Shown here in pieces: positions 1-29,819 of a stretch of DNA of 64,000 nt. Position 1 is the stretch's first letter, and each line of letters starts with the position of its first letter. Origin of the DNA: Candidatus Blautia intestinavium (GTDB lineage Bacteria; Bacillota; Clostridia; Lachnospirales; Lachnospiraceae); assembly GCA_019113745.1 (NCBI GenBank), contig DXGV01000022.1, positions 31,523 through 95,522 on the forward strand, given 5' to 3'. The notes below the pieces were generated by a model that did not search any database, was not told the origin of the DNA, and saw nothing but the letters and a program-made list of their open reading frames with translations. The position numbers and the translations under genes were made by a program.

Positions 1-332
1 TCTTCCCACAGACGGATATGCGTAGTCTTTCCCACTCCGCTGGGAGCCGCAAATACATAAGCCTCCCCGTCCATGGAAATCGCCGCGGAATGCATCAGAA
101 AAGCGTCGTACTTTGCCAGCGCAAAACAGATATTCCGGTAAATACAGAGACTTTCACAGTAACCTTTCGAAAAACGGTTGTCTCCGTTCTGCTCCTTCAG
201 GATTTCTTCTTCTGTGACCGCTACCGTAAACGCAGGCTTTTCTTCTGTCTCGTAGCCCTCGCACAAACGCCGGATATAAGGATAGCGATTCTCAATTCCT
301 ATAGGGATATCCGCAATCTTAATGCAAAACAT
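1..332 (-). CDS. HPr kinase/PEPCK-like P-loop protein, RiPP-cluster type (partial, runs off left edge)
   Basis: Minus-strand reading from ATG at 332: MFCIKIADIPIGIENRYPYIRRLCEGYETEEKPAFTVAVTEEE...MHSAAISMDGEAYVFAAPSGVGKTTHIRLWE; Walker A APSGVGKTTH. Preceded by a GAGAGG RBS-like sequence. Confidence 0.75.
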   Translation of the reverse strand, partial: MFCIKIADIPIGIENRYPYIRRLCEGYETEEKPAFTVAVTEEEILKEQNGDNRFSKGYCESLCIYRNICFALAKYDAFLMHSAAISMDGEAYVFAAPSGVGKTTHIRLWE

Positions 333-621: not shown

Positions 622-2022
622 TCATTTTTTCTCAAATTTCGTGTTTACTTCTTCCAGCTTTCTGCGGATGCGCTCCACATATCCCTCTTTCCACATCCTG
701 CACATGTCCCGGTCGCAGCCCATCAGATTGTGCTCGCCTGTCAGCAGAGCCGCCGCCCGGCATCCTCCGCCGCATTCATAGCGGTATCCGCAGGAATCAC
801 ATTCCTTATTCGCCGCGAACAGATCCCCGACGCGGCTGTCCACAAACTGCATATAATAGCTGTCCCGCAGCCCTTTCCTTAAGCCTATATCCTGCACCTT
901 AGGAAAGCGTTCCTGATCCGGACTGGCCGTCATAGGCATACAGGGCAGGAGCCTTCCCTCCGGAGTAATATAGCAGGACCAGCGGGTTGCCCCGCATAAA
1001 TAACATTCTCTGCATTTTTCTGTTCCATCGTAATGTCTTACGCTCAGGGTCGCCGGTTCATCCCGCGACATCCTTGCAATGCCGCCAAATTCCAGGCTTT
1101 CTATCGGGCGTCCGGCCTCATAATACCACTCGATATAAGGAAGCATGGCGTCCACATACTCCTGCCACGTCAGATCATTTCCCTCGCTATGACGCCTCCA
1201 GAGATCTGTTTCATCCACATGAGCGGTTTTCAGCTCTGTGGCTCCCACCGACCGCAGCGTCTCCACCGTCTGAGGAATCGTATCCTTATTTCCACGGTGA
1301 ATACACATACTCACACTTGTATGAAATCCATGTTCATGACACAGCTTCAGCGCGCGCAGCGTCCGCTCTTCCGCTCCGGGAACGCCCCGCATCCAGTCAT
1401 GACATCCCGTACCGTCGAAGCTGATATTTATCTCCGGTTTAAGACCACGGCGTTCAAATTTCTCTAAAATCCTCTCATCTAACAGCCATCCATTTGAATA
1501 AATCTGCGCCACAAACATTTTGTGAGAAAGAATACGATCTATCAGTTTCCAGAAGTCTTTCCGTACAAAGGGCTCGCCGCCAGTAATGTCCACCCGCAGC
1601 ACACCGCACTCCGCCATCTGATCGATCAGGGCAAAAGCTTCCTCCGTGGAAAGCTCTCCAAGCATCGCGTCCGGCGCGTCCATATAACAGTGGCGACAGC
1701 GGAAATTACATCTGCCTGTAACGGACCAGAAAACTCTCCTGGTAAATCTGTTAGGGTAATACCGGTAATTCTGATCCGGATCCAGCGGAGACGTCTGAAC
1801 AGAAGCTTCAATGATCCCTTCTGATTCACACTTATGCAGGACTTCCAAAAATGTATCGTCCAAAAATTCCCCCGGTAGTTCCGTTTCTCCATCACAAAGC
1901 AGGAGCACCTGAAACATTTTCTGCGACAGCAGGCGCGTCGCATTCTCCGGGCGCTTCACCAACACCCAGGACATCTCCTCCCAGCCCCGCAGCACATAAT
2001 CGGGTTTTAATTTATAAAACAT
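622..2022 (-). CDS. Radical SAM/SPASM peptide maturase with N-terminal PqqD-like (RRE) region
   Basis: CNFRCRHC (CX3CX2C) radical SAM motif; C-terminal SPASM cysteines (CRECYLCG...CDSCGYRYECGGGC...CDRDMC); N-terminal PqqD-like segment. Confidence 0.9.
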   Translation of the reverse strand: MFYKLKPDYVLRGWEEMSWVLVKRPENATRLLSQKMFQVLLLCDGETELPGEFLDDTFLEVLHKCESEGIIEASVQTSPLDPDQNYRYYPNRFTRRVFWSVTGRCNFRCRHCYMDAPDAMLGELSTEEAFALIDQMAECGVLRVDITGGEPFVRKDFWKLIDRILSHKMFVAQIYSNGWLLDERILEKFERRGLKPEINISFDGTGCHDWMRGVPGAEERTLRALKLCHEHGFHTSVSMCIHRGNKDTIPQTVETLRSVGATELKTAHVDETDLWRRHSEGNDLTWQEYVDAMLPYIEWYYEAGRPIESLEFGGIARMSRDEPATLSVRHYDGTEKCRECYLCGATRWSCYITPEGRLLPCMPMTASPDQERFPKVQDIGLRKGLRDSYYMQFVDSRVGDLFAANKECDSCGYRYECGGGCRAAALLTGEHNLMGCDRDMCRMWKEGYVERIRRKLEEVNTKFEKK

Positions 2023-2052: not shown

Positions 2053-2220
2053 CTATTTCCATGATCCCCCCGGACAGTCACCGCTGTTGCCCTTGCATCC
2101 GTTTCCATTATCCTGTCCATTATTACGACAGCCGCCTATATCTAATCCGCCGCTTGTGGTGATCACGTCCCGGTTCGTAAAATAAACAACCTCTGCTTCC
2201 GCTTTTTCATAATTCATCAT
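2053..2220 (-). CDS. Putative Cys/Gly/Asn-rich RiPP precursor peptide (55 aa; absent from the ORF track)
   Basis: Minus: MMNYEKAEAEVVYFTNRDVITTSGGLDIGGCRNNGQDNGNGCKGNSGDCPGGSWK*; GGGAGG RBS upstream; directly upstream of radical SAM/SPASM gene. Confidence 0.85.
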   Translation of the reverse strand: MMNYEKAEAEVVYFTNRDVITTSGGLDIGGCRNNGQDNGNGCKGNSGDCPGGSWK

Positions 2221-2285: not shown

Positions 2286-2315
2286 TAAAAAAAGCTGCAA
2301 CAATATAGTTGCAGC
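2286..2315 (-). terminator. Intrinsic terminator in the RiPP operon leader
   Basis: Minus GCTGCAAC-TATATT-GTTGCAGC followed by TTTTTTT. Confidence 0.85.
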
Positions 2316-2324
2316 CGAACGACC

Positions 2325-2419: not shown

Positions 2420-2449
2420 ATTATACGATACTGCATACTGTTCTGTCAA
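2420..2449 (-). promoter_or_regulatory. Sigma-A promoter driving riboswitch and RiPP operon
   Basis: Minus TTGACA (2449-2444), 18-nt spacer, TATAAT (2425-2420); both hexamers consensus. Confidence 0.85.
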
Positions 2450-2551: not shown

Positions 2552-3712
2552 ATGATCAACTATAAAAATCTTGAAGAATTATACACAGCCGGTTCTTATC
2601 TGGTGAAACTGCTGTCCGCTGTCCTTCACGAAGAAGAAGCGCCGCCTCTTCCTGAATCTCTAAACTGGAAGCTTATATATGATATGGCGAAGATGCATTC
2701 TGTAGAGACTATGGCTTTTTATGGCGCAGAGCCATTTATCAGAGATGATGCAGAACTTTATCAAAACTGGAAAAAGAGCCGGGATGCCAACATTGCCCAA
2801 AGCCTGCACCAGATAGAAGCACGGAAAGAAGTATTCCAGGCTCTGTATGAAGCGGGAATCCGCTTTCTGCCACTGAAGGGATACGAAATGAAGTGTCTGT
2901 ATCCCCGGCCTGAATTCCGCCAGATGGCAGATGTCGACGTATTGATCGATCCTGAAAATACCTCCCGCGCAAGAGAAATCATGATACATCTTGGATATCG
3001 GCAAAAAGAAGCGCTGCCGCATCACGACGAATACTTTCGCCCGCCTTTTGTGACTGTGGAGGTTCATCGGCAGATGCTTCTTGTAGGAGAATCCAGACAG
3101 GCATATTATGATAATATATGGGACAGAGCGCTTATCGATGAAGAAAATCCAGGCGGTTATAAACTCAGCCCGGAAGATTTCTATATTTATCAGATTGCAC
3201 ATTTCGAAAAACATTATAGTCTTATGGGCAGTGGTATCCGGTCTGCGCTGGATATCTATGTTTATTTGAATAAATTCAGGACAATTTTAAACCGAGACTA
3301 TATAAAAGAAGAATTTCAAAAACTTAACATTTATAATTTTGGCACAAAAATGGAATATCTGAGCCAGTTCTGGTTTTCTAAGCAGCAACCGGACATAAAA
3401 ATTAGTAAAGACGAATTAAATGAAATACAAAAAAACATTTTCCTTTCCGGCGTTTACGGATCACTGGAATTTTCAAGATTTAAAAAGATGTCTAATCTTC
3501 ATATAGAAAAGGGATTCAAACAAACTTTCCATTATTTCTGGACAAGGATTTTCACCAGAAAAAAAGACTTTAAAAATTCTTATCCTTTTCTCAGAAAGTA
3601 TCCCTTTCTTCTACCTTTTTGTTGGTTTCACAGACTTATTTACGTTTTACTGCATAAAAAGCAATCTATCAAAAGAGAACTTGAATTATATAAGAAAGTA
3701 AAGGAAAAATAA
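2552..3712 (+). CDS. Nucleotidyltransferase family protein (NTP_transf_5-like)
   Basis: LPLKGYEMKCLYPRPEFRQMADVDVLIDPENTSRAREIM...VEVHRQM pattern of uncharacterised NTP_transf_5 proteins often found in RiPP loci; GGGGG RBS. Confidence 0.8.
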   Translation: MINYKNLEELYTAGSYLVKLLSAVLHEEEAPPLPESLNWKLIYDMAKMHSVETMAFYGAEPFIRDDAELYQNWKKSRDANIAQSLHQIEARKEVFQALYEAGIRFLPLKGYEMKCLYPRPEFRQMADVDVLIDPENTSRAREIMIHLGYRQKEALPHHDEYFRPPFVTVEVHRQMLLVGESRQAYYDNIWDRALIDEENPGGYKLSPEDFYIYQIAHFEKHYSLMGSGIRSALDIYVYLNKFRTILNRDYIKEEFQKLNIYNFGTKMEYLSQFWFSKQQPDIKISKDELNEIQKNIFLSGVYGSLEFSRFKKMSNLHIEKGFKQTFHYFWTRIFTRKKDFKNSYPFLRKYPFLLPFCWFHRLIYVLLHKKQSIKRELELYKKVKEK

Positions 3713-3764: not shown

Positions 3765-5261
3765 TTATTTGGATTTCAGCTTTTTTAAGTTTCTTTCTTC
3801 CTGCATTAATTTTATATATGTTTTTATCGTTTTGGATATTCCCATAATACGAATTCTGACCACCAATTTTCCCACTCTGTTAAATATCATCTTATTTATT
3901 CCGTGCTTTTTTTTAGCATATTCAATCCCATCCAGTTCAGGACATACATAAGCAATTAATTTATCCTGATGCTTTTTGACTCTCCTTTCCTGGATTGGAA
4001 AATCTGCAAGCATAGAAATAAGAAATCTTGAATTAACTGGCTGTAAAGAAGTAATATCTTCCATTATATCAAATGACTGTTCTATTGGCGAAAGCCAACT
4101 TGCATTTCTTTGTTCCCAAAAAAACCTGTCACAATCTGAAATACCAACCTGTTTTGTCTTTTCCAGCCATTCAAAATACGATTTCAATGACTTTTGAACT
4201 AATTCATTTGCAACAAAAAAACTGTATATACTCTCTATGTCCAGTTTACCTTTGTCATCTAAAAATTTCTGGTAATAGTTTGTGACCGTTTCCCAGACTG
4301 AACTTCTGAGAAGAACTATATTCCCATATTTCTGTACCAAATCACGATATTGACCATAAGCATAAAACCGTTTATCCTCGTCATCCGCCAATCCGCCAGT
4401 ATGCATTATATATTCCTTTTCTAATTCTTTAGAATACTTTTTTTTTCTAGGTATATATGTATATTTTTTCTTTAATGCCTTACAAAGCTTTTGGGGAATT
4501 TCTACATCTCCGTCTGATATTTTTTTATGGTCTAATGTATAGCAATCAAAATCTATTCCTGCATATTCTGCCAACGCAAGTAATGTTCTTGAATCATAGC
4601 CGCCTGTAAGGGCTATCAAAATTTTCTTTTCCGGAAACATATCCTGCAGATTATGTAATGAATTAGAAAAAAGTTCTGAAAAAGCTTCTATTCTTTCCTG
4701 CTCATCTTTATATCGGGGAATATGCGTCGCTAAAAGCTGTCGGCTGTTTATTGTCTGGTCGTTGTAATTATAAATCTGGCTGGGTAGCAACCGTTTGATC
4801 TGTTCATACTGAGTTAGAGGACCTGGAAGCCAATTAAAACCAAATGTAGGACGATATATAATTTGAGGTAACCCCATAATTTCTGCCAGCATCATACAAC
4901 TGCTGGAAATCCCCTCTCTGCTGTAAAAAATCCCCAGTAAACCAGTCGCATCCAGATAAATTTTTTCGTTTACAATCAACACGTATCTTCCGCACCAGGA
5001 TTCTTCCATCCTCAAAATCTCTTCTTCCGGTATATATCCTTCGTACTTTTCCGCCAGCTTTTCAATTTCAGATACGGGATCTTCCTTTTTTTCTTTTACC
5101 TGCCATGCAATACCAAGCAGTATAATCTCATATTGCTTATTTATATAAATATTTAAGTCCTTATGATAGCTTAAAATATAATTATTCTTTAGCTCAACAT
5201 AAATATAATCAGAACTGTGAATTTTTTTCTTTGCTATAATAAATTGTTTCTTATTGATCAA
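3765..5261 (-). CDS. Asparagine synthase-like protein of the polysaccharide cluster
   Basis: ALTGGYDSRTLLALA ATP-PPase loop; degenerate N-terminal glutaminase-like domain; EPS cluster context. Confidence 0.75.
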   Translation of the reverse strand: MINKKQFIIAKKKIHSSDYIYVELKNNYILSYHKDLNIYINKQYEIILLGIAWQVKEKKEDPVSEIEKLAEKYEGYIPEEEILRMEESWCGRYVLIVNEKIYLDATGLLGIFYSREGISSSCMMLAEIMGLPQIIYRPTFGFNWLPGPLTQYEQIKRLLPSQIYNYNDQTINSRQLLATHIPRYKDEQERIEAFSELFSNSLHNLQDMFPEKKILIALTGGYDSRTLLALAEYAGIDFDCYTLDHKKISDGDVEIPQKLCKALKKKYTYIPRKKKYSKELEKEYIMHTGGLADDEDKRFYAYGQYRDLVQKYGNIVLLRSSVWETVTNYYQKFLDDKGKLDIESIYSFFVANELVQKSLKSYFEWLEKTKQVGISDCDRFFWEQRNASWLSPIEQSFDIMEDITSLQPVNSRFLISMLADFPIQERRVKKHQDKLIAYVCPELDGIEYAKKKHGINKMIFNRVGKLVVRIRIMGISKTIKTYIKLMQEERNLKKLKSK

Positions 5262-8813: not shown

Positions 8814-9844
8814 TACTGGATTGCACTTATGAATCCCTGATACATTTTGTCTATCGTCACTTCTTCTTCATATTCTTTCTGGCACTCCTTCCGCATCTTT
8901 TGCAGAACGTCATCATTTTGAAGCAGATACAGCAGCTTCTGTTTATAGTCTTCTTCGTTTTTTGCAATAAATCCAGTTTTTCCCTCTTTCAGATAATAAA
9001 TCTCCGGAGGCTGGAATCCCTGCATAGTCACAACGGGCATGTTCCAGAATATCGCTTCGTTGATTCCCAGGCCTACGTTGACCGGAATGCTAAAAATGTC
9101 CCCCATCGCCCATATTTCTGTACCCTCTTCTCCATATTTTGTTCCCATATAATATAAATTGGAAACAGAATCAAACATTTCCTTAAGCGCAGGAGTAATA
9201 CCCGCTCCCATAACAACGACCGCCACATCCGGCATATCCGCCAGCGCGTTTAACAGAATTTCTATCCGTTTATTTTTCTTTAAACGGCTGATATACAGCA
9301 CTACCTTCTTTTCTTTTATACCATATTTCCTGCGGATTGTCTGCTTGTTATATTTTGACCTGTCAATATCGGAACAGTCCACCGTATTATAGGCTATGAA
9401 CAGTTTATGGCGATTTTTTTTCTGAAAATTCTCTGTCATTTCCGGCGTATATGTAATAAGGGCGTCGCAGCAGTTATGGATATGATGGTAAAGCATATTT
9501 TTTACAGGGTTGTGCGGATCCTGGTCGCTGACTCCCTTGTTCCAGAATATAACGGGAATTTTCTTCCTTTTGCAGTAATGAATAATAGGAATCTGGATTT
9601 TATCTTTCAGATGAAGAAACACAATAACCACAGCGGGCTTTAATTTTCTGATTACCGTCTCGTAACCTCTCGCCGACATTGGGAGGGTGTGCGCTGTAAA
9701 TTTAAAGTCATACCCTGCATTCTGGAATTCATTGGACAAAACATGAAATTCATATCCGTCCTGCATAAACCGGTCTACAAAATAATTATAAACTTTCTGC
9801 CTGTAGTGAAAAACATAATTTGAGATCAACAGTATTTTTTTCAT
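8798..9844 (-). CDS. Glycosyltransferase (GT4-like)
   Basis: VVLYISRLKKNKRIEILLNALADMPDVAVVVMGAG...INEAIFWNMPVVTM. Confidence 0.82.
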   Translation of the reverse strand: MKKILLISNYVFHYRQKVYNYFVDRFMQDGYEFHVLSNEFQNAGYDFKFTAHTLPMSARGYETVIRKLKPAVVIVFLHLKDKIQIPIIHYCKRKKIPVIFWNKGVSDQDPHNPVKNMLYHHIHNCCDALITYTPEMTENFQKKNRHKLFIAYNTVDCSDIDRSKYNKQTIRRKYGIKEKKVVLYISRLKKNKRIEILLNALADMPDVAVVVMGAGITPALKEMFDSVSNLYYMGTKYGEEGTEIWAMGDIFSIPVNVGLGINEAIFWNMPVVTMQGFQPPEIYYLKEGKTGFIAKNEEDYKQKLLYLLQNDDVLQKMRKECQKEYEEEVTIDKMYQGFISAIQYCRGI

Positions 9845-9853
9845 AAATCCCTC

Positions 9854-11209
9854 TTACTGTACAGCAGTATTGTTTTCTGTGATGTAATTTACTATCCAGC
9901 TATATTTACCTCTTTTGCTCATAATAAGCTTATCAACAACCCGTATCTCTATTTTCAATATACCCTCGCACTTTCTCTCATAGTAATCATTTATAATTTT
10001 GAAATCATTGTCTGTGAGCGGACAATCTGCCATCACATCCAAATACGCCTTTCCAACCTCATACTGTACAAACTGATATAATTTAATCTTTTCAAATGGC
10101 GCAATACGGGCTGCCAGAGTACCTTTATATATTTTGACGCCGCCCCTGCCTATCAGGTATGTCTCTGACATTTTATGTCCTGAAATTTCAATCTGCCCCT
10201 GCTGATTATAAGTTACCACGTCGTCTGTCATATATCGGATCAGAGGCATTTTTCTGGAAAGGAATCCCGTACATACAATTCTGAACTTCTTCACATCACT
10301 GTTATCATTAACTGGAATCAATTCTGTGAATCCATATAATTCATTAAATTTATATCCTTCCGGATAAAGCTCCGCAAAAACGGCCCGTTCCGTATGTCCA
10401 TACCTGGCGACGGTTCTGCATCCGAAAGTCTTTTCCACATATTCTTTTATCTCAGGAGTATAATTATCCGCATAAAATTCCACAAATTTCACAGGCAGTT
10501 TTTTGTTATATTTCCGTACTAATTTCGCAAACACATAGATTGCCGATGGATATCCGGACAACACATCCGGCTTAAATTTATTTATATCCGCCCAGACAGA
10601 AGGGAACTCACTTTCTTTAAAAAGGCGGAACGGCGAGATCACGATCTCGTTTTTCATAGGTGAATAATAGTAATCCTGATCTTTATTATGGCCCCAAAAG
10701 GCAAGCGTTCGCGTTTTTCCAGAATCAAATCCGAATTTATTCAGATAATGAAGCACAAAAGCCCTTTCTTTGTAAATCGAATCTTTATCCAGCAAAATCC
10801 GAAAAGCTGTTCCTGTGCTTCCGGAAGTACGAGATTCATAGCACGCGATATTTTCCCTGGAATATAAATTTTCTCCTTCGCTGACAGCGATATTTTTATC
10901 GAGGAACGGAATAGCCTGCATTTCCTCCACATTTCTGAACTTGTACGGATCAAATTTTACTTTGTCAAACGTCCTTCTGTAGTACGGGACATTTTCATAG
11001 GCATAAATCAATGTTTGTTTTAATTTATTGAAAATAATCTCTTTTTTCTTCTCTTCTTCGAGATTTTCAAATTGATCTAACTCTGTATATGTTTTTTTGT
11101 ATACTTTATTTCTGATTAAAACTCTCTGGAACAAAGGAGCCAATAAATACTTTATTTCCTTTGGCATATTTTCATATAATATTTTTATTTTTTCATAATT
11201 CATTGTCAA
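9854..11209 (-). CDS. Phenylacetate-CoA ligase/CapK-like adenylate-forming protein
   Basis: ESRTSGSTGTAFRILLD AMP-binding loop; CapK-like layout in EPS cluster. Confidence 0.82.
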   Translation of the reverse strand: MTMNYEKIKILYENMPKEIKYLLAPLFQRVLIRNKVYKKTYTELDQFENLEEEKKKEIIFNKLKQTLIYAYENVPYYRRTFDKVKFDPYKFRNVEEMQAIPFLDKNIAVSEGENLYSRENIACYESRTSGSTGTAFRILLDKDSIYKERAFVLHYLNKFGFDSGKTRTLAFWGHNKDQDYYYSPMKNEIVISPFRLFKESEFPSVWADINKFKPDVLSGYPSAIYVFAKLVRKYNKKLPVKFVEFYADNYTPEIKEYVEKTFGCRTVARYGHTERAVFAELYPEGYKFNELYGFTELIPVNDNSDVKKFRIVCTGFLSRKMPLIRYMTDDVVTYNQQGQIEISGHKMSETYLIGRGGVKIYKGTLAARIAPFEKIKLYQFVQYEVGKAYLDVMADCPLTDNDFKIINDYYERKCEGILKIEIRVVDKLIMSKRGKYSWIVNYITENNTAVQ

Positions 11210-11265: not shown

Positions 11266-13140
11266 CTACGTTATTTTCTGCACCTGAATACAGGAAACAA
11301 GATAATTTCCGCCGAAATCCACCCTGACGCCCTGCGTTTCCCTTTTTATTCCATATTGAGACGAATACATTTTATTTTCTTTATATAAATTCATATAACC
11401 ACCGCATTTAAAATCTATTTTTATTATATATGTATTCCCCTGAACAATTACCTGCTTTTCCAGAATATCGACTTTAAGGCCCGGGGCAAAAACAAAATCC
11501 GCCTCTTTTTTCTGTTCTCCCTCCACAAAATCAGATATCACCAGTCTGTCTTTCTTATTAAAGCAAAATTCCCGTCTGTGTACAACCGGTTTATAACCAT
11601 TATGCTCTGCTTTCAAAATTATCTGGCTGTTTTCTTCAAAATCGGTAAGCCTGCATTCCGCCCTTCTGCCCCAAAGAAACGGCCCCAGCATTTCTGACTG
11701 GTCCCTGCCGTCCATACATACGGTATTATGATTTTCTGTCTTTCGAAATGCATTCCTGCTTTTAATATCACAGTGATAAATGTAAGTACCGGGATCCGCA
11801 AATACCGGCTGCCCTTCCACAAACATCTGAAAACTTAAGGCGTCCGCATGTCCATGGGCGGCAATACTTCCAAATCCCAGTTCCGCATGGTCAATATCGA
11901 TCAATATCTTTCTGTCTTCGCTTCTCAGGATTGTATTTCCGCCTTCACGATAGCATGCGCTGAGCGGCGGATGATAAACGGCTTTTCGGCAGGCCTCCTC
12001 TGTTTCATCACTGTCAAAAAGCCATTTCAGGTTTTCACATCGGATATCTTTTTCATTCGCGTAACGCGCCGGCAGAATATAACTGAAAAGTCCCAACACA
12101 TAAGGATAATAGTCCAGTCCGCCCTGCAGATCCAGGATTTTCCCTTCGTCGTTATCACCAAATTCCACGACTTCACCATAGTCGCCTGTACAGTCCGCCA
12201 CATAGCGGCACATTTTATCAAGCATCGTATTCCATATTTCCGGATATGCAATATGATTTTTATGGAAGAGCCGCATCGTCAGTCCCATGGCTTCCATATA
12301 AAACGCCTGGTAGTGCAGAGACAGTTCTCTATTAACGCCGTCTGGATAGTTCTGAAGCGGAAGTTCTTTTGTAAGTATTTCAGATGCCAGCTTGATCCAT
12401 GGAAAGTAACCGCAGAGTATACCGGTCTGTCCGATGGCGTAAGCTTCTACGATCAGATGATTATTTGCGGAAGAATATCGGGAATAATGCTTTGCGATAT
12501 AGTCTGCCATATTTATAATACCCGTTCTTATTTTTCCCTGTAATCCTGCCGCGTCTTTCATTCCGTCCAGAAAGCAGTATGTAAAGCACCAGTTGCTGCA
12601 TCGGATAGCGATTTCCATGACGCTTGTCCATGAAATTCCCCACAGAAAGGGATTTTTTTTATTCCAGTCATAAAAAAGCGTTTCCAGCTCATCTAAATAC
12701 TTTTTGTTTTCTGAAACCCTGTAGGCTTTTGCAAGTAAGGCAAACTGAAAGTGTCTGTTTAACTCCCAGTTTGTTCTGGCGTCGCCGATATCGTCTCTCT
12801 GTTTGTATTCCAGTTCATAAGAAAATCTTTCCGGCCATACCTGTGCCGTCTGAAATCCTGCGTTCCACTTCTGTTTATAAAAACTGTAATCATATCCCCC
12901 AAGGAGAGGGATCACTGTACTCATGGAAAATGTGGTGTTTTTCAGATTTAAGTGCATTTTTTCCGCATCTATCCTCAGATCCGTAAGTTTCGGATTGAAA
13001 ACCTTCCCCACTACTTCAGTTTTATTAGGTTTAAAGTAAACGGCTTCTTTTTTCTGTGTGATCTTCTGACCAGTTCTCCATACAACCTCCGGTATACTCA
13101 TTGCCCTGAGACGCCGGACAAGCCACATTACATCAGCCAT
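11266..13140 (-). CDS. Heparinase II/III (alginate lyase)-like family protein
   Basis: SSANNHLIVEAYAI, AHGHADALSFQMFVEGQPVFADPGTYIY motifs. Confidence 0.85.
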   Translation of the reverse strand: MADVMWLVRRLRAMSIPEVVWRTGQKITQKKEAVYFKPNKTEVVGKVFNPKLTDLRIDAEKMHLNLKNTTFSMSTVIPLLGGYDYSFYKQKWNAGFQTAQVWPERFSYELEYKQRDDIGDARTNWELNRHFQFALLAKAYRVSENKKYLDELETLFYDWNKKNPFLWGISWTSVMEIAIRCSNWCFTYCFLDGMKDAAGLQGKIRTGIINMADYIAKHYSRYSSANNHLIVEAYAIGQTGILCGYFPWIKLASEILTKELPLQNYPDGVNRELSLHYQAFYMEAMGLTMRLFHKNHIAYPEIWNTMLDKMCRYVADCTGDYGEVVEFGDNDEGKILDLQGGLDYYPYVLGLFSYILPARYANEKDIRCENLKWLFDSDETEEACRKAVYHPPLSACYREGGNTILRSEDRKILIDIDHAELGFGSIAAHGHADALSFQMFVEGQPVFADPGTYIYHCDIKSRNAFRKTENHNTVCMDGRDQSEMLGPFLWGRRAECRLTDFEENSQIILKAEHNGYKPVVHRREFCFNKKDRLVISDFVEGEQKKEADFVFAPGLKVDILEKQVIVQGNTYIIKIDFKCGGYMNLYKENKMYSSQYGIKRETQGVRVDFGGNYLVSCIQVQKIT

Positions 13141-13157
13141 AAGATTCCACCTCTGTT

Positions 13158-14582
13158 TTAAAATTCTGTTTTCATCATCGACCGTACAAGTTCTTCCTTC
13201 TGCGCCGGATTGGAATTAATATTTCCCCAGCTTATCCCCTCATAATTTCCCTCATAATCTAGCTCCTTATACTGGCGCGCAAGATCGACGATTGCTTTAT
13301 GGGGATATTTTTCAGGAATGCAGTCAAAATCTTTATCCCTGTTTGTGATAACCAGCACCTCGCACTGAGAGCAGACAGCATCCAGATCATCCGTGATCCT
13401 TTCATGAAGGTGAGGAAGCTTTGCCTCTATAAAGTCGGCGTTTGTGCCTGTCATCTGGGAGATGCGGACATTTTTATCATAAATAGAAAGCTCATATCCT
13501 TTTCCAAGCAGCGCTTCGGCAACGTCTATAATCGGGCTGTACCGCAGATCGTCCGTTCCCTCTTTGAAACTCAGACCCAGAATACCTATTTTTCGTTTTC
13601 CTTTGCTTTCGATTATTTCAAGCGCCTTCTTTTTCTGAAGCTCATTAGACGGATTGATCGCGCTGATCACCGGGACGTCTACATATAGATCATGGGCCAG
13701 CGTACGCAGTGCTTTGGAATCTTTTGGCAGACAGGATCCCCCGTAAGCAAATCCCGGTTTAAAGTAATAAGGCGAAATGTTCAACTGTCTGTCCTTACAG
13801 AAAATGTCCATCACTTTGTGACTGTCTATATTCATAGCTTTGCAGATGTTTCCAATCTCATTGGCAAAGACGATCTTCAGTCCATGATAGGTATTATTCA
13901 CATATTTCATGATTTCCGCCACTTCAATATCTGTTGCAATAAATTCCCCCGGAATATCCTTATACAGCTCCCGGAATTTTTTCTCCGCAGTTTCACTGTC
14001 TGTACCGATCAGCGTCAGGGGCGGATTCTTGTAATCCTGTACGGCAGTTCCTTCCCGCAAAAATTCAGGATTAGACACAACGGCAAAATCTTTGTTTCGT
14101 TTCTTTCCTGAGGACTGCTCAATGATGTCCCCCACTTTTTTATTCGTTCCCGGAAGAACCGTACTGCGGATGGCTATAATATGGAAGCTGTCTTTATGTC
14201 TGAGCGCTTCTCCGATCTGGCGGGCAGCTTCAAAAATATAGTCCAGATTCAGATGCCCTTCACGGGTACTGGGTGTTCCCACTACAATAAATGAAATTTC
14301 GGACTGGCTTACCGCGTACTGAGGATCCATCGTTGCCTCCAGAAGCCCCCTGTCATGCGCTTTCTTTACCAGTTCCCCGATTTCCGCTTCAATAATCGTC
14401 GGTTTTCCCTGATTGATCAGATTTACTTTATTTTCAGATATATCGTTCCCGATCACCCGGTGTCCCATATCCGCAAGACAGGCCGCTCCCACGCAGCCCA
14501 CATATCCCAGGCCAAACATACTGATGTCCATTTTTTCCCCTCTATGCCTTTCTTCTCTCATATCTACAGTTAACATTATCAT
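13158..14582 (-). CDS. Nucleotide-sugar dehydrogenase, GDP-mannose 6-dehydrogenase (AlgD)-like
   Basis: MDISMFGLGYVGCVGAACLADMGHRVIGNDI; GFAYGGSCLPKD catalytic motif; overall resemblance to Pseudomonas AlgD from memory. Start probably at MDISMFG (14531). Confidence 0.8.
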   Translation of the reverse strand: MIMLTVDMREERHRGEKMDISMFGLGYVGCVGAACLADMGHRVIGNDISENKVNLINQGKPTIIEAEIGELVKKAHDRGLLEATMDPQYAVSQSEISFIVVGTPSTREGHLNLDYIFEAARQIGEALRHKDSFHIIAIRSTVLPGTNKKVGDIIEQSSGKKRNKDFAVVSNPEFLREGTAVQDYKNPPLTLIGTDSETAEKKFRELYKDIPGEFIATDIEVAEIMKYVNNTYHGLKIVFANEIGNICKAMNIDSHKVMDIFCKDRQLNISPYYFKPGFAYGGSCLPKDSKALRTLAHDLYVDVPVISAINPSNELQKKKALEIIESKGKRKIGILGLSFKEGTDDLRYSPIIDVAEALLGKGYELSIYDKNVRISQMTGTNADFIEAKLPHLHERITDDLDAVCSQCEVLVITNRDKDFDCIPEKYPHKAIVDLARQYKELDYEGNYEGISWGNINSNPAQKEELVRSMMKTEF

Positions 14583-23078: not shown

Positions 23079-24716
23079 TTACTTTCTTTTATCATTTGCG
23101 TCTGTGTCCTGATTGCTTTCCTCCTGGAACAGAAAATCTACAAACTCGCCGCTGGAAGTAACCTCCCGCTTTTTCTCCGTTGGTTTTTCTTCTACATCCG
23201 CCGCAAATCCTGCAACAAGAGAATTGTCTGAATCTCCATTCTTTATGCCAAAGCTGTTTTCATCCCCGGCCTTTCCCATTTTTACGAGAGGATCGCCGAT
23301 CGTATTCAGCTTGACTTCAGCTTTTTTGATATTTTCTCTCTCTTTTACAGGGTTCTTAACGCCTTTTTTACTTACTTTTATACCGTTCACCACACAGCCA
23401 AGAAGCTGGACTCCCGACTTTTCCACTCTCTCCAGGGCGTCCTTGATCTCCTGCAAAGTAGCGTTATCATAGCGGACTACAAACAGCGCCGCGGACGCGA
23501 TCTGATTCAGGCTCATGGGATCTGCCGTCAGACCCACAGGGGCCGTATCCATCAGAACGTAGTCGTACCCTTCCGCGATCTTCCTGATCACCTGGAAAAG
23601 ATTGCTGTCAAGCGGTATTGCGCTTCTCTCCAGGATCGTAGGTATGATATCCAGATAACCTGTCAGAGATATAATAGCTTCCTCCTTCGTGATATCGCCT
23701 GTATAAAATGCGTTCAGAGAATGTTCATAATCCACACGCTTCAGGAACATACCTCCAAGATTTGGATTCTTCATATCCAGATCCACCAGGAGGACTTTCT
23801 TTTCCAGATCGGACAACTGTACTGCCAGATTTGCAAGAATGCTGGTTTTCCCTTCATCTTTTAAAGTGGAAGTGATGTAAATAATATGCGGGCCGGGTTT
23901 CCGCAGATGATTCTGTATGATATGGGCGGCAGAGGAGAAGCTTTCTCTTACCTCTGTCCCGATCCCGTCGTCTACAAGAATAGAATCCTTCTTTTCAAAG
24001 TAGGCTTTGTCATCTGCTATCTCACAGAGTACCTCCAGACCGTACTCACTCTCAATTTCCTCCACATTCAGCAAAGTCGGGCGCATGATCAGTTCAAGAA
24101 GGATGATTCCCAGGCTGAGCCCGAAGCCAAGCAATGCCAGATATCCCCAGAGTACCACATTGACGCTTCCTCCAATCAGATATTTTGCGCTGGGCGGGTT
24201 GATCACCGCCGTATTTCCGATATTCAGCGTCTCCTTTAACACCGCCGGCGCCTCATTATTGAGCGCCGTAAGGATATTGATTCCCTCATCCGCGCTTCTC
24301 CAGTACAGCGACATTTCGATGATCTGTGTTTCCTCATATGGAGTCAGCGTCAGATTATCCGCGATATCTTTCGTGGTAACTCCAAGAAGTCCCAGAGAAT
24401 CGATGATCTCATCCAGCATTTTATCGCTTTTCAGGACATAGGAAACTGTATCTGCCAGGTCCGTCGCCATATCAATATCATTAATACTGGGAAAGTCATA
24501 TCCTGAGGTAAACAGTCCGTTGTCTGTCTGCGTATTCACAGAAAACGCGCTTGTAACAAGGTATTCCTTGCTCATTTCTCCCTGCAGATAGGAAATCCCT
24601 GAAAGTACCATGCCTACAAGAAGACCTGCCACCGTCATACCAATGATCAGAAGACGATGTTTGATTATTCCATATAAGATATCTGCAATTCTGATATGAA
24701 TCCCGTTATTTCTCAC
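23079..24716 (-). CDS. Wzz-type chain-length determinant fused to BY-type tyrosine kinase
   Basis: Two TMs around an extracellular region; YITSTLKDEGKTSILANLAVQLS, VLLVDLDMKNP, YDYVLMDTAPV. Confidence 0.9.
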   Translation of the reverse strand: MRNNGIHIRIADILYGIIKHRLLIIGMTVAGLLVGMVLSGISYLQGEMSKEYLVTSAFSVNTQTDNGLFTSGYDFPSINDIDMATDLADTVSYVLKSDKMLDEIIDSLGLLGVTTKDIADNLTLTPYEETQIIEMSLYWRSADEGINILTALNNEAPAVLKETLNIGNTAVINPPSAKYLIGGSVNVVLWGYLALLGFGLSLGIILLELIMRPTLLNVEEIESEYGLEVLCEIADDKAYFEKKDSILVDDGIGTEVRESFSSAAHIIQNHLRKPGPHIIYITSTLKDEGKTSILANLAVQLSDLEKKVLLVDLDMKNPNLGGMFLKRVDYEHSLNAFYTGDITKEEAIISLTGYLDIIPTILERSAIPLDSNLFQVIRKIAEGYDYVLMDTAPVGLTADPMSLNQIASAALFVVRYDNATLQEIKDALERVEKSGVQLLGCVVNGIKVSKKGVKNPVKERENIKKAEVKLNTIGDPLVKMGKAGDENSFGIKNGDSDNSLVAGFAADVEEKPTEKKREVTSSGEFVDFLFQEESNQDTDANDKRK

Positions 24717-26422
24717 GACTTATTTCCTTTCCTGACCTTTTTTCTTATGATTACGGCAACTGCGGATATGGCCAGTATAACTGCGCCGCATCCCACAATA
24801 ATCACAATGATATTCTGCATTGTCCAGACAGAAACAGAAAATTCCTGCAGTGCCTCGTCCTCAGAAAAGTCAAATTCATATTTCTTTTCTTCATCCCCCT
24901 TCAGCAGAACGTAGTATCCGCCCTCTGGAAGATCTTCAAAAGTAGTATCCGTACCGTTTGTCGTCCATGTCTGGATCAGGCTGCCGTCCTCGCTGTATAA
25001 GGACAGGCTGTAGTCTGAAACAGGCTTTCCTAAAAGTTTATCTGTTACATTGATGTTGACGCGCGGGATATAATTTGTAAACTCAAACGATGCTTTCGCT
25101 TCGCCGTCGATGCGTCCGTCCTCCGTTACAGTGATCTCCACAGGCGTATCGTCAAATCTGTAATCGTCAGGCGCTCCGACCTGCTGCAGTTTATAGGTTC
25201 TGTTTTTCTCAAGATCTGTAAAGACAAGTTCTCCGTTCTCATCTGTTTCCGCCTCCTGATTAAGCTCCGGATAATTGTCGCAGCTGAGAAGAAATTCTGC
25301 CCCTTCCAGTCTCTGGCTTGTATACACCTCGTCCGACAGAGTCAGCTCTATTTTTGTTTTTTCACAGGAAAATTTCACAGCCGCCGGCGTACTTCCGTCT
25401 TTCTCTTCCACTGTTCTCTCCGCCGTGTCTTCTATGCTGGCGTAATACTTCGGTATCTCGTCCTGGGAAATAATATAACTGCCCAGGTACAGTTCCTTAC
25501 TCTGGCCCTGCCCGTCTTCGTCCATCACGATTGTATCTGCCGTCTCATCTTTCGCATAACGCAGGGTTTCGTCTGAGGTGATGATATCCTCCGCTGCGGT
25601 AACTTTAAAAGTACCGTCAGAAACCGGTTCCTGTGTTTCCGCGTCTGTCAGCTCGACAGGAATAATATTTTTCACCGGGGAAATCGCGATGGAAACCACA
25701 TAGGGATCCGGCCAGTCGTATACGTCGTCGATTTCAAAGTTCACGGCTTCCGCCAGATCGTATCCTTCCACTTCGGATATCTGTTTAAAATAGTAATTTC
25801 CCTCGTCGATTTTCTCCGGAAGGTAGAATACGCCCGCTTCTGTAGTCGCGTAATTCCTGTATTCTGTTTTTTCCGGATAATATGTATTCAGGAAACGGAG
25901 GGAACCGCCGTCGTCCCCGCCTTCTTCTTCGTACAATTCAAAGGTAATGCCTGCCTGACGGATAGCGCGTCCGGTCTCTTCGTCTACTACCGTGGCATAG
26001 ACGGCGGCTTTTCCCCACTCGTCGCCGCTGGTAGGAGGATAAGGGAATTCATAGTCTCCGCCGTAGTCGTCGCCGCCTCCGCCGCCACCTCCGCCGGATA
26101 CGATATCCTCTTCCTCCTCGTACTCTTCTTCACCGTCGCCTCCGCCGCCGGCGCCGTCCCAGTCATCGTCGCCGTCATCAGAATCGCCCCCGAGATCATG
26201 GGCATGATCATCGATCGTATTTCCCAGTTGATTATCTACCGTATAGCCGTTTCCCTCTTCCGCATCTGGCAGAGTATCTTCTGGTATCTGCATTAAATAT
26301 AAGATCAAAAGGAGGATGATCAATACCAGTACGAGCACGAGACCTGTCATCATATCTGTGTTTGATTGCCAGTAATTGATCTCCGAATGGTTTTTTTTGT
26401 TTCTTTTCATTCTTCTCTCCAA
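24713..26422 (-). CDS. MotB/ExbD-like membrane protein with Gly/Asp/Glu-rich linker, several SpaA/Cna-B-like domains and C-terminal TM
   Basis: N-term YWQSNTDMMTGLVLVLVLIILLLILYL (MotB-like D-x-M-T before/at TM); repeated prealbumin-like units (DEETGRAI..AGITFELYE, RLEGAEFLLS..TDENGELVFTDL, DYSLSLYSEDG); C-term IIVIIVGCGAVILAISAVAVIIRKKVRKGNKS. Confidence 0.72.
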   Translation of the reverse strand: MERRMKRNKKNHSEINYWQSNTDMMTGLVLVLVLIILLLILYLMQIPEDTLPDAEEGNGYTVDNQLGNTIDDHAHDLGGDSDDGDDDWDGAGGGGDGEEEYEEEEDIVSGGGGGGGGDDYGGDYEFPYPPTSGDEWGKAAVYATVVDEETGRAIRQAGITFELYEEEGGDDGGSLRFLNTYYPEKTEYRNYATTEAGVFYLPEKIDEGNYYFKQISEVEGYDLAEAVNFEIDDVYDWPDPYVVSIAISPVKNIIPVELTDAETQEPVSDGTFKVTAAEDIITSDETLRYAKDETADTIVMDEDGQGQSKELYLGSYIISQDEIPKYYASIEDTAERTVEEKDGSTPAAVKFSCEKTKIELTLSDEVYTSQRLEGAEFLLSCDNYPELNQEAETDENGELVFTDLEKNRTYKLQQVGAPDDYRFDDTPVEITVTEDGRIDGEAKASFEFTNYIPRVNINVTDKLLGKPVSDYSLSLYSEDGSLIQTWTTNGTDTTFEDLPEGGYYVLLKGDEEKKYEFDFSEDEALQEFSVSVWTMQNIIVIIVGCGAVILAISAVAVIIRKKVRKGNKS

Positions 26423-27966
26423 TTCATCATCTTCTCGAACTCTTCAATAGGAACCGGCTTTGAAAGATAAAATCCCTGCCCCTCCGTAATTCCGTTTTTA
26501 CGGAGAAGAGACATCTGTTTCATGCTTTCAATTCCTTCCGCCATAAGATCTACCTGCATGTTTCTTGCCTGCTCCGCAATCGATGTGATATTAACATCTT
26601 CATGGCAAAATCTGAGGTCAAGTTTATATGCGTCCGCACAGGGCGCTTCTTCCCCGGAATAAAGTTCAAAAAAGGCTCCTTTGAAACCGTCCACAACAAC
26701 CCGGAAACCTCTTTGCTGAAGTGTTTTCTCAAATTGAAGCGCGACGTTTCTTGATTCAAGGTATGCGTTCTGCGCAATATCAAACTCCACATATTTTGGC
26801 GGCAGCCTGTATTTCTGGATCATATCGGTAAATACTTCTGAAATGTCCAGTGCCAGAACGTCCGTCTTCGATATATTTACCGCAATAGGCACCGGATGCA
26901 GCCCCGCATCCACCCACTCTCTGATCTTTGCGCAGACTTTATCCCATATGTACTGATCGAGCTTTGCAATATAGCCGTTTTTTTCCAGAATAGGTATAAA
27001 CACCGACGGCGCGATAAGCCCTAATTTCGCGTGATTCCAGCGCACCAGAGCCTCGGCGCCAGTGATCCTTTGCGTATTGAGATCAAATCTCGGCTGAAGA
27101 TAGAATGTAAATTCTCCGTTTTTCAGACCTGTCATAATCTGCGGCATCAAAACAGACTCGCTGCCAGCGTTACTGAACATCGCGCCGTTGGAATTTGCAA
27201 GGGAATATCCTTCATTGCGGGGAAGATGTTTCAATTTGTCCTGTATCTTCTCCATATCTTTCTTCTGGGAGTATCTTTCCTGTTCCTCCACAGACGGAAT
27301 GATATTTCTCTGGAACGACGCCGTAAACATACCCAGATCGCGCAGCATGATATTCCAGAGGAATTTATAAACTATATTAAAAAGAACAGAAAGGATAACG
27401 CCGGAAATAGAGGTATAGAACGCTACCCTGATACCGTCGAACAGCGTCTGTATACTTGCCAGCGTCGCGTCCACTGAGCTGATCTGCACGCTGCTGATAC
27501 CTGTGATCAGACCGATGAATGTTCCCAAAAGTCCCAGACCTGTCAGGGTGCCCGGTATCTGAAGCACGACTCCCTGCCAGCACCTCACGGAAATCTCTTC
27601 CTCATTGATCATCTCGTCAATCCCCTCGATGATCATATTATTTTTTCTTTCTTCTTCGACCTTCTCTCTGTACTGCTCAAATAAACGGTCCAGCACTCTC
27701 TGGTTAAAAAAATTATCCATTTTCACAACCGCCAGCCACGGCATGGACGTCTGGGTTTTCTGCGCAGTCAGAATATTCCTGGCCGCATGATTAAATCCCG
27801 CGCTGTAATTTATGACAGGGAACACTCCGAGAAACCCTCCCACAACAACGATTCCTGTCATTACGCCGCCGAAAATCCGGGAGAGAATATCGGGCGCCAG
27901 AACTGTCAAAGCCACTGCCGCGCCAACCACAATTAAAAATGCTCCGTACGAAATCCACTTTTTCAT
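26407..27966 (-). CDS. MotA/TolQ/ExbB-like proton channel fused to degenerate EAL domain
   Basis: GVVLQIPGTLTGLGLLGTFIGLITGIS...GIRVAFYTSISGVILSVLFNIVYKFL (MotA/TolQ/ExbB core); then GAEALVRWNHAKLGLIAPSVFIPILEKNGYI...AVNISKTD...VVVDGFKGAF...MAEGIES...QGFYLSKPV (EAL). Confidence 0.85.
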   Translation of the reverse strand: MKKWISYGAFLIVVGAAVALTVLAPDILSRIFGGVMTGIVVVGGFLGVFPVINYSAGFNHAARNILTAQKTQTSMPWLAVVKMDNFFNQRVLDRLFEQYREKVEEERKNNMIIEGIDEMINEEEISVRCWQGVVLQIPGTLTGLGLLGTFIGLITGISSVQISSVDATLASIQTLFDGIRVAFYTSISGVILSVLFNIVYKFLWNIMLRDLGMFTASFQRNIIPSVEEQERYSQKKDMEKIQDKLKHLPRNEGYSLANSNGAMFSNAGSESVLMPQIMTGLKNGEFTFYLQPRFDLNTQRITGAEALVRWNHAKLGLIAPSVFIPILEKNGYIAKLDQYIWDKVCAKIREWVDAGLHPVPIAVNISKTDVLALDISEVFTDMIQKYRLPPKYVEFDIAQNAYLESRNVALQFEKTLQQRGFRVVVDGFKGAFFELYSGEEAPCADAYKLDLRFCHEDVNITSIAEQARNMQVDLMAEGIESMKQMSLLRKNGITEGQGFYLSKPVPIEEFEKMMNWREE

Positions 27967-27999: not shown

Positions 28000-28031
28000 A
28001 AAAAGCTGCATTTGAATTCATCAAATGCAGC
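28000..28031 (-). terminator. Intrinsic terminator in EPS operon leader
   Basis: Minus GCTGCATTTGA-TGAAT-TCAAATGCAGC followed by TTTTT. Confidence 0.85.
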
Positions 28032-28034
28032 CAG

Positions 28035-28100
28035 TCAATCATAGGAATCCCCTTAGATACTAAACTTTGCGTCCCTACATTTCTATAGGTTTGCCTCCCT
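28035..28100 (-). ncRNA. c-di-GMP-I (GEMM-I) riboswitch
   Basis: Minus: GGCAAACCTATAGAAATGTAGGGACGCAAAGTTTAGTATCTAAGGGGATTCCTATGATTG; canonical core, GAAA tetraloop and CUAAG...UAUGA receptor-like strands; terminator follows. Confidence 0.9.
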
Positions 28101-28190
28101 ATTAACCTTTGACATAAGCCGCTGGGATTTTATGCCATAATCCTGTTTAATTATGTCAATGGAAAACGTATAAACGTCCTTATGTTTTAC

Positions 28191-28219
28191 ATTCTACAAT
28201 ATCCGCCTTTTTCTGTCAA
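28191..28219 (-). promoter_or_regulatory. Candidate sigma-A promoter for EPS operon leader
   Basis: Minus TTGACA-17 nt-TAGAAT overlapping the GGDEF gene stop. A second TTGACA lies about 60 bp downstream with a weaker -10. Confidence 0.7.
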
Positions 28220-29760
28220 CTTAAATCATTTCCATTTTCGGGATATTTTTCATATTTTCCGAACTCGCATACCCGTTTTTTTCCGGCCTTCTTTGCCATA
28301 TACAGCGCTTCATCCGCGCATTGATAGAGTTTTTCATAATCCCATTCCGCGTTTTCCGTCACGGCGAACCCAATACTGCATCCTGTTTCTATCTTCTGTC
28401 CGTTCCAGCAGATATCGGCCATATGTCTGATCACTTTTTCCGCATATTCACTGATATATGCCGTATCTTCCCCTACCTTCAAAAGCACCATAAACTCGTC
28501 CCCGCCAAACCGTCCTATTTTTGCGTTTTCAGGAGCGTATTTTACCATGATATCCGCCACCTGCTTCAGCACATGATCGCCGCAGGGATGTCCGTATGTA
28601 TCGTTTATGTTTTTGAAATCATCCATGTCCAGGATCAGCATGGCTATCCTGTGGGATTTCAGATGCAGAGATTCCAGCCAGTTCCGGCCGCAGTCACCTA
28701 TGGAAGCCTTATTTAAAAGGCCTGTGGCGTCCAGAGTGGCGTTTTTCTGAAACTCTATAAGCTGTTCTTTTTCTTTTGTGATATCATTCATAAATCCTAT
28801 CGCGTACATCATACTCTCGTCAGATGATGAGCGCTGACAGGCTACCTGTATTTTGAACCAGCGCTGTATATTGCCTCTGGTCAGAAGCTTGATCTCAAAT
28901 TTCTGATAGGCGGCTCCCCTTCGCACCGCTTCCATACATTCCCGTATCTTTTTCTTTTCTGCGTCTTCTATCGTCAGACAACTGTTCAGGAACTGGCTGA
29001 AACGGGGAATCTCATAATCATTTTCAAAAAAATCCCTCCAGTTTTTTGAAAACACCAGCTTATCTTTTTCCGGATCCCACTGAAAGGTGATAAAGCCCGC
29101 GTTCTGGCTGATAAGATCATACTGTTCCTTTGTAAGCCAGAAACGTCTTGTATGCAGTTTTTCCCCTATTTCATGAATCTGCCTGCTCTGATCCAGTTCA
29201 ATACAGATATGCCGGAACCGCACGATACAGATCACGCTGGCCATCAGCGCGGTAAGCGTATAATTAATTCCATCTCCGGAAAAAAGAGAAATCTGCGCCG
29301 CCGTCATAAAAATAAAATAATTTGCCCAGATGATGATCAGACCATATACGGGCTCCACGATCACCAGCGCGGAAAAGGCCACAAGCATGGTAGACGCCAT
29401 TGTCACATGCACATGGTCGGATCTGAAAATGTCATATATATTCAGGCAGGTATTCCAGAAAAGCACGATACCTATATAAATAAGTGAAATCCTGTTTCCT
29501 TTCCTGAAAGACTTCTCTTTCTGTCTGTCATAGATCAGATACAGTATGGAACAAACCAGCAAAAAAGTGTAAAATCCGAAATAGATCCTGTTATTTAACG
29601 TATTCAGTCCGCTGTCGGAGCCAAACAGTACTCTGATTATATTAAACCCTTCCACAGCCAGGCAGAACACAGAGGCGACAATACACAAAAGTCTGTTATT
29701 CCGGAACGCCTCTTCTATATATTTTTCTTTTCCAACATCAGAAATTATGCTGATTTTCAA
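28216..29760 (-). CDS. Membrane PAS-GGDEF diguanylate cyclase (probable TTG start at 29760; ATG-initiated ORF extends to 29814)
   Basis: RFGGDEFMVLL active site; ILDMDDFKNINDTYGHPCGDHVLKQVA; PAS region; several N-terminal TMs. Confidence 0.9.
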   Translation of the reverse strand: MKISIISDVGKEKYIEEAFRNNRLLCIVASVFCLAVEGFNIIRVLFGSDSGLNTLNNRIYFGFYTFLLVCSILYLIYDRQKEKSFRKGNRISLIYIGIVLFWNTCLNIYDIFRSDHVHVTMASTMLVAFSALVIVEPVYGLIIIWANYFIFMTAAQISLFSGDGINYTLTALMASVICIVRFRHICIELDQSRQIHEIGEKLHTRRFWLTKEQYDLISQNAGFITFQWDPEKDKLVFSKNWRDFFENDYEIPRFSQFLNSCLTIEDAEKKKIRECMEAVRRGAAYQKFEIKLLTRGNIQRWFKIQVACQRSSSDESMMYAIGFMNDITKEKEQLIEFQKNATLDATGLLNKASIGDCGRNWLESLHLKSHRIAMLILDMDDFKNINDTYGHPCGDHVLKQVADIMVKYAPENAKIGRFGGDEFMVLLKVGEDTAYISEYAEKVIRHMADICWNGQKIETGCSIGFAVTENAEWDYEKLYQCADEALYMAKKAGKKRVCEFGKYEKYPENGNDLS

Positions 29761-29769
29761 CGTTAAATT

Positions 29770-29779
29770 CCCCCCCCCC
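29770..29779 (-). repeat. G10 homopolymer at SD position of the diguanylate cyclase
   Basis: Ten consecutive C on + strand (29770-29779), 9 nt upstream of TTG start. Confidence 0.9.
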
Positions 29780-29819
29780 GCCACACATACGGCTATACCG
29801 CATATTTTTTCCATGCACT

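Follow-up and report, generated by a model that had tools for sequence, protein, structure and literature searches.

Sactipeptide and ranthipeptide systems (SkfB, CteB, thuricin CD, ruminococcin C, StsB) join an RRE, a radical SAM domain and a SPASM domain in enzymes encoded beside a cysteine-bearing core peptide. A second group of known systems, the Firmicutes lasso clusters (paeninodin, pseudomycoidin and those of Butyrivibrio), carries a kit of HPr-kinase homologue, PqqD-type RRE and nucleotidyltransferase. Kinase/nucleotidyltransferase tailoring is reported to add phosphate and sugar in the paeninodin and pseudomycoidin clusters (PMC8498205), and the gene kinds HprK, PqqD-type and nucleotidyltransferase are found in rumen lasso clusters (PMC7533575). 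The SynChlorMet cassette (ScmA-F) comprises the HprK-like ScmC, the PqqD-like ScmD and two rSAM/SPASM proteins, ScmE and ScmF; in the open-access PMC subset we found no papers on SynChlorMet or on the combination of rSAM, HPr kinase, PqqD and RiPP.

The window, the 64,000-nt stretch of Candidatus Blautia intestinavium DNA analyzed here, contains an ORF of 55 codons on the minus strand (2053-2220), made up of the leader MMNYEKAEAEVVYFTNRDVITTSG and the core GLDIGGCRNNGQDNGNGCKGNSGDCPGGSWK. The initial annotation had translated it exactly and had given the spacing of the core cysteines correctly as C-X10-C-X6-C; the good ribosome-binding site that it claimed is a GGGAGG Shine-Dalgarno sequence before the ATG. 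The ortholog in Candidatus Blautia excrementipullorum (L014:7994-8158, L014/L020) differs by 24 synonymous changes in 35 sites and 17 non-synonymous ones in 127 (pS 0.69, pN 0.13), a dN/dS of ~0.08 with synonymous sites near saturation, and the ORF is therefore a real gene under purifying selection. No NCBIfam or Pfam model matched the precursors, for either leader or core motifs, and no paper containing the motif string was found in the open-access PMC subset. With a probability of roughly 77%, we read the gene as encoding the precursor of a ribosomal, radical SAM-modified peptide within a c-di-GMP-controlled matrix program.

Scanning genome contigs for relatives yielded 80 loci. Precursor and rSAM/SPASM enzyme of the same kind lie side by side in ~20 Lachnospiraceae and Oscillospiraceae loci, and the ORF is thus conserved beside its maturase family, a point on which the initial annotation had made its reading depend. 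One to three DVITTSG-type ORFs directly precede nearly every rSAM of a 24-sequence clade, the clear exception being L036, which has the kinase and PqqD and in which no precursor was found; another member, L025, begins at a contig end. The leader (consensus Y-x-K-A-x-A-E-V-V-x-F-D-N-S-D-V-I-T-T-S-G) is strongly conserved through DVITTSG, immediately after which conservation falls and the cores become variable, the pattern that had been proposed as a check on homologues. The initial annotation was also correct that gut Firmicutes have further short peptides with DVITTSG. A leader HMM run over 14,867 short ORFs scored the precursors at E ~1e-8 or better and the next ORFs at ~1; being trained on these same precursors, it demonstrates separation rather than independent discovery.

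Cores fall into two types. Type 1 (C-x-x-W-[SA]-[NS]-Q-[NS]-x-x-x-C) was seen in nine precursors, and type 2 combines C-X10-C-X6-C with a terminal [SA]-W-K in 6/6 cases (the window, L020, L021, L022, L023 and L024). In the maturase tree type-2 cores are confined to one 8-row clade (99/97), to which the maturase of the L024 type-2 ORF also belongs, and type-1 cores occur solely outside it, so the maturases track the cores rather than the leader common to both types. One precursor of each type, with its own rSAM, is present in the window genome, in B. excrementipullorum and in F. gallinarum, the type-1 pairing in B. excrementipullorum being presumed across a contig break. Enrichment of C-X10-C across core families (5/14, shuffle P 0.0006) was noticed post hoc and serves as a hint. 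Because the leader is conserved, the cysteine-bearing cores vary and the type-2 core is restricted to one maturase clade, the identification of 2053-2220 as a RiPP precursor of the neighboring rSAM is supported; on the chemistry, which is a prediction, the initial annotation was rightly cautious. In L090 a divergent candidate precursor (MKYLKAEVETIILENVDIITASTHPCPRSPGSDACVGTGYTPC..., 9682-9918) lies upstream of an rSAM whose match spans query residues 1-237 only, the contig ending soon after.

Adjoining the precursor gene on its downstream side is the gene for maturase 1 (622-2022, minus strand; 466 aa; Pfam Radical_SAM 9.4e-25). Its CX3CX2C motif and seven SPASM cysteines (C343, C361, C408, C411, C417, C421 and C441) are invariant in 37 homologues. 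The closest PDB folds to its AF2 model (pLDDT 91.8) are the RiPP maturases SkfB and SuiB, followed by PqqE and TigE. The initial annotation had called the N-terminus RRE-like, and at the level of sequence nothing of the sort was detectable, profile-profile comparison of the N-terminal 89 aa with the PqqD of the kit being negative and no PDB entry matching by sequence. By predicted fold the description holds: the top PDB matches of this segment are nearly all RRE-bearing (TbiB1 with leader, SuiB, lasso B1, a heterocyclase, CteB and TigE, with MccB lower down), each weak individually at E of at least 0.03. The model thus supports an RRE at residues ~1-85. In B. excrementipullorum the corresponding rSAM has an in-frame TGA at the conserved Trp14 codon (L020:10001-10060, the same as L008/L014) followed by an ATG at codon 17, which may reflect an assembly error, a restart at M17 or decay.

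Cassette rSAMs with at least ~42% identity are preceded by one to three ORFs with the leader and accompanied by HprK, PqqD and S26. Farther rSAMs outside the clade (~43% and below) in many cases adjoin GG-leader (Nif11-like) peptides, and tblastn returned zero HprK, PqqD or S26 matches in the GG-leader rSAM loci of the same family. Three distant relatives lie by GG-leader peptides with repeated C-x-C...GGG blocks (L047:9693-9983, L051:9726-9947 and L062:9699-9938; example VCACAIAGGGTPGYKDEACACVVGGWGE), a different RiPP family with a maturase N-terminal 'LRGW' region common to both.

A paralog of rSAM 1, 64% identical, is encoded 3.5 kb further on in the same genome (G000). It belongs to an operon ordered HprK-related kinase, PqqD, SipW-like S26 protease, precursor 2, rSAM 2 and ABC exporter, of which the precursor/rSAM pair falls just outside the window. 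The 5' part of the kinase gene lies within it (3-332, minus strand), and the complete gene (235 aa) is at G000:C58:31147-31854, equivalent to L007:13148-13855; assignment to the HprK family combines weak model matches with an invariant P-loop and H/D residues (P-loop, H81, D123 and K124 in 16 homologues). The stand-alone PqqD (L007:12885-13154; Pfam 1.7e-15) resembles the lasso RRE TbiB1. Ser24, His63 and GDN are invariant in the protease (S24/S26; L007:12443-12892), the same Ser/His arrangement as in signal peptidases of the SipW/Sec11 type. Precursor 2, MLSQNTTANTPYEKAEAEVVYFDNSDVITTSGEVAGCVTWSNQNGVACQFGLTAS (L007:12203-12370), has the core C-x-x-W-S-N-Q-N-G-x-x-C, and is followed by rSAM 2 (L007:10593-12020) and the exporter (L007:8833-10596). 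Divergent from precursor 1 is a gene for an NTP_transf_5 nucleotidyltransferase-like protein (2552-3712, plus strand; PF14907 6.5e-45), homologues of which occur between rSAM and ABC genes in L024, L027 and L030 and directly after the rSAM in L022.

Three c-di-GMP-I riboswitches lie on the minus strand of the window, all above the RF01051 gathering score of 35 bits. The initial annotation had noticed neither these nor the second precursor/rSAM pair with its kinase, PqqD, protease and exporter genes. One precedes precursor 1 and rSAM 1 (2307-2412; 52.4 bits), the second the HprK-PqqD-S26-precursor 2-rSAM 2-ABC operon (481-555; 67.6 bits) and the third an exopolysaccharide operon (28023-28105; 61.6 bits); the first two are kept in L014. 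A sigma-70-type promoter, TTGACA-18-TATAAT, stands directly upstream of the first (2420-2449, minus strand; 12/12, by consensus scan only). Its aptamer overlaps an intrinsic terminator, GGCTGCAAC-tatatt-GTTGCAGCT with a T-run (2293-2316, minus strand; -15.1 kcal/mol, z -4.8 versus shuffles), also kept in L014, and the terminator 5' arm GGCTGCAAC doubles as the aptamer 3' strand. Given this shared strand, ligand binding is predicted to prevent termination, making the riboswitches putative ON switches for c-di-GMP. After the 481-555 riboswitch a terminator-like hairpin folds as well, weakly relative to shuffles (z -1.7).

These are the only three RF01051 matches at cut-off in the genome, all in this island, in an assembly that is 82.7% complete; a second Blautia genome (G025) likewise has just three, at the same positions. 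The family is common in the genus, with a c-di-GMP-I riboswitch over cut-off in 36/60 genomes. Among ~20 species with the cassette, four have a riboswitch at gathering score, and most other cassette loci are without one. No c-di-GMP-II riboswitch was matched in the genome, nor in control genomes. L026 and L037, both from Faecalibacterium, each have a switch before HprK and another before the same MotA-EAL and Wzz/BY-kinase genes. The predicted control of an rSAM RiPP by c-di-GMP riboswitches is the new element here, rSAM RiPPs themselves being a known kind; we found it described nowhere in the open-access PMC subset, in which no publication connected RiPPs to c-di-GMP riboswitches.

Polysaccharide biosynthesis genes extend over 3765-24716 (minus strand) and include a flippase, a mannose-1-P guanylyltransferase/PMI, a heparinase II/III-like protein and Wzz/BY-kinase-like and glycosyltransferase-like ORFs. 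The first gene after riboswitch 3 encodes a MotA/ExbB-EAL fusion (26407-27966, minus strand; EAL 1e-43, MotA_ExbB 9e-9), and upstream of the same riboswitch is a GGDEF diguanylate cyclase (28216-29814, minus strand; PF00990 9.2e-34). In L026 and L037 homologues of the fusion (48-49% identity) adjoin the RiPP cassette and likewise stand behind a riboswitch. This combination of proton channel-like and EAL domains at the head of a riboswitch-preceded exopolysaccharide operon, kept in L026 and L037, is unusual; in the window it is followed, within 24713-27966 (minus strand), by a protein that has SpaA-type domains and, at its N-terminus, a short membrane segment. The cassette is linked to exopolysaccharide genes in ~five species. 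Since c-di-GMP switches precede both peptide operons and the adjacent polysaccharide operon, the arrangement suggests that the peptide belongs to a biofilm program.

Under this scheme, high c-di-GMP would fold the aptamers and block the terminators, allowing transcription of the two RiPP operons as well as the exopolysaccharide operon. The leader would dock on the N-terminal RRE of the maturase, on the stand-alone PqqD or on both, and the SPASM maturase would cross-link the core, thioethers from the three cysteines being the modification that we moderately favor. The SipW-like Ser/His protease would cleave near TSG to release the leader, and the product would leave the cell through the ABC protein; precursor 2 would be made alongside with its own maturase. 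Further tailoring with phosphate or a phospho-sugar, in the manner of Firmicutes lasso clusters, may come from the HprK-type kinase and nucleotidyltransferase. We propose a function as a matrix-associated antagonist or signal, by analogy with the sporulation killing factor made by Bacillus matrix producers. No immunity gene was recognized, and an antimicrobial role is therefore proposed as an analogy only.

The initial annotation had linked DVITTSG to the rSAM, whereas the same leader is also found on peptides with no rSAM nearby. A profile of the leader run over 392 order-level genomes gave nine positives. The matches examined outside G000 are short, cysteine-poor peptides with cysteine-free cores, many of them directly after very large secreted proteins. 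Such peptides, in L104-L107, L110-L113 and L116-L119, follow very long secreted or repeat-bearing surface proteins (e.g., L116:7607-10813 and 11536-13461, L117:5919-8171 and L119:2694-2831; example peptide MRKFYTSPEAEVVEFDTKDVITTSPSILDSFTGESANEEQGWTGLF). All eight leader-positive genomes besides G000 encode PqqD and the protease, usually in a single HprK-PqqD-S26 operon, and operons of this kind without an adjacent rSAM of the clade occur in the same genomes; L102/L114 have the order peptide-PqqD-S26-NTP5. The protease is present in 9/9 leader-positive genomes versus 44/392 overall (hypergeometric P 1.3e-9, phylogeny ignored), on which basis the leader is probably read in general by the HprK-PqqD-S26 kit, the rSAM being an addition in the branch described here. 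Wzz/BY-kinase, NTP_transf_5-like, HprK, PqqD, S26 and ABC genes form one run beside polysaccharide genes in L166:5128-9400 and L171:2072-8022, near which no clade rSAM and no leader-bearing precursor were found.

DVITTSG could accordingly be mainly a tag for the kit, directing phosphorylation, cleavage or secretion, with the rSAM optional in one branch. We consider the odds of this evenly balanced: the cysteine-free peptides beside giant secreted proteins, the kit operons lacking a neighboring clade rSAM and the distribution of the protease all speak for it, but kit and peptide are often unlinked in leader-positive genomes, leaving direct action putative. It is also largely compatible with a radical SAM-modified product in Blautia. 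More tentatively, the kit and the Y..P/A..EVV.FD..DVITTSG leader may make up a hitherto undescribed system by which gut Firmicutes in general process peptides, both the cysteine-free ones encoded next to giant secreted proteins and, where rSAMs were recruited, cross-linked ones, serving in Blautia and Faecalibacterium as the RiPP arm of a c-di-GMP-riboswitch matrix regulon.

The nature of the modification invites a different alternative, in which the product is a RiPP on which the rSAM makes a non-thioether change (a C-C bond at the conserved Trp/Lys, oxidation or epimerization) and the cysteines form disulfides after export. Each of the six type-2 cores ends with an invariant W and K, and type-1 cores likewise have an invariant W; the Lys-Trp cross-linker SuiB ranks with the nearest folds and gives the longest alignments; and the even cysteine numbers of type-1 cores would suit disulfide rings. 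Type-2 cores, however, have an odd number of cysteines, three, and the other closest folds include the sactisynthase SkfB and, for the RRE, CteB. A C-C bond or other such change in the core is the unlikelier chemistry, though one to be reckoned with.

That the rSAM acts on another substrate, a polysaccharide or a cofactor, with the peptide as a bystander or small regulator, would fit the polysaccharide genes that adjoin the cassette in several species. It is rendered very improbable by the co-segregation of core type with maturase clade, the multiple precursor paralogs directly upstream of rSAMs, the presence of an RRE fold and PqqD, and the GG-leader peptides adjoining related rSAMs. A chance or non-coding ORF, for which its short length alone speaks, can be dismissed given the dN/dS of ~0.08, the ribosome-binding site and the clade-wide conservation.

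If a radical SAM-modified peptide within a matrix program is correct, a gut RiPP family is wired by riboswitches straight to c-di-GMP beside matrix polysaccharide, and it becomes testable whether gut Firmicutes that settle and form matrix produce a dedicated modified peptide, antagonist or signal. In addition, rSAM chemistry would be combined with tailoring by a kinase and a nucleotidyltransferase, as known for lasso peptides. Leader motif, processing kit and co-varying core/maturase pairs provide handles for mining.

A leader-bearing precursor beside an rSAM, CX3CX2C and SPASM motifs, an RRE by fold and a stand-alone PqqD together support classing the system, by how it works, as a radical SAM RiPP in which a radical modification of the core is predicted. 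Like the SynChlorMet cassette, it has HprK-like, PqqD-like and two rSAM/SPASM genes, with scores far below the cut-offs for membership (ScmE 107.5 versus 400, ScmC 26 versus 125 and ScmD 17 versus 100). With Firmicutes lasso clusters it shares the HPr-kinase homologue, PqqD-type RRE and nucleotidyltransferase, and its Y-x-K-[PA]-type leader presumably resembles theirs; in contrast, Blautia has rSAMs in place of B2/C, a SipW-like protease and cores without the lasso pattern. No B2 transglutaminase-like protease or asparagine-synthetase-like cyclase was recognized in the cassette operons, the AsnB-like neighboring ORF (3765-5261) having no Pfam match at 1e-5, and on this ground we do not class the system as a lasso cluster. 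The enzyme architecture and adjacent cysteine core are those of sactipeptides and ranthipeptides, and the Blautia pair recalls thuricin CD, in which each of two precursors has its own rSAM; the StsB-type maturase model (NF045574) gave 111.5 bits against a cut-off of 625, which places the enzyme outside that family, as it does not belong to other curated families either. Compared with these systems, the HprK/PqqD/S26 kit and the c-di-GMP riboswitches are additional in Blautia. The switches themselves resemble those of Clostridia c-di-GMP-I regulons, with a canonical aptamer and terminator and one standing before EAL/polysaccharide genes, but differ in that two of the three precede RiPP operons.
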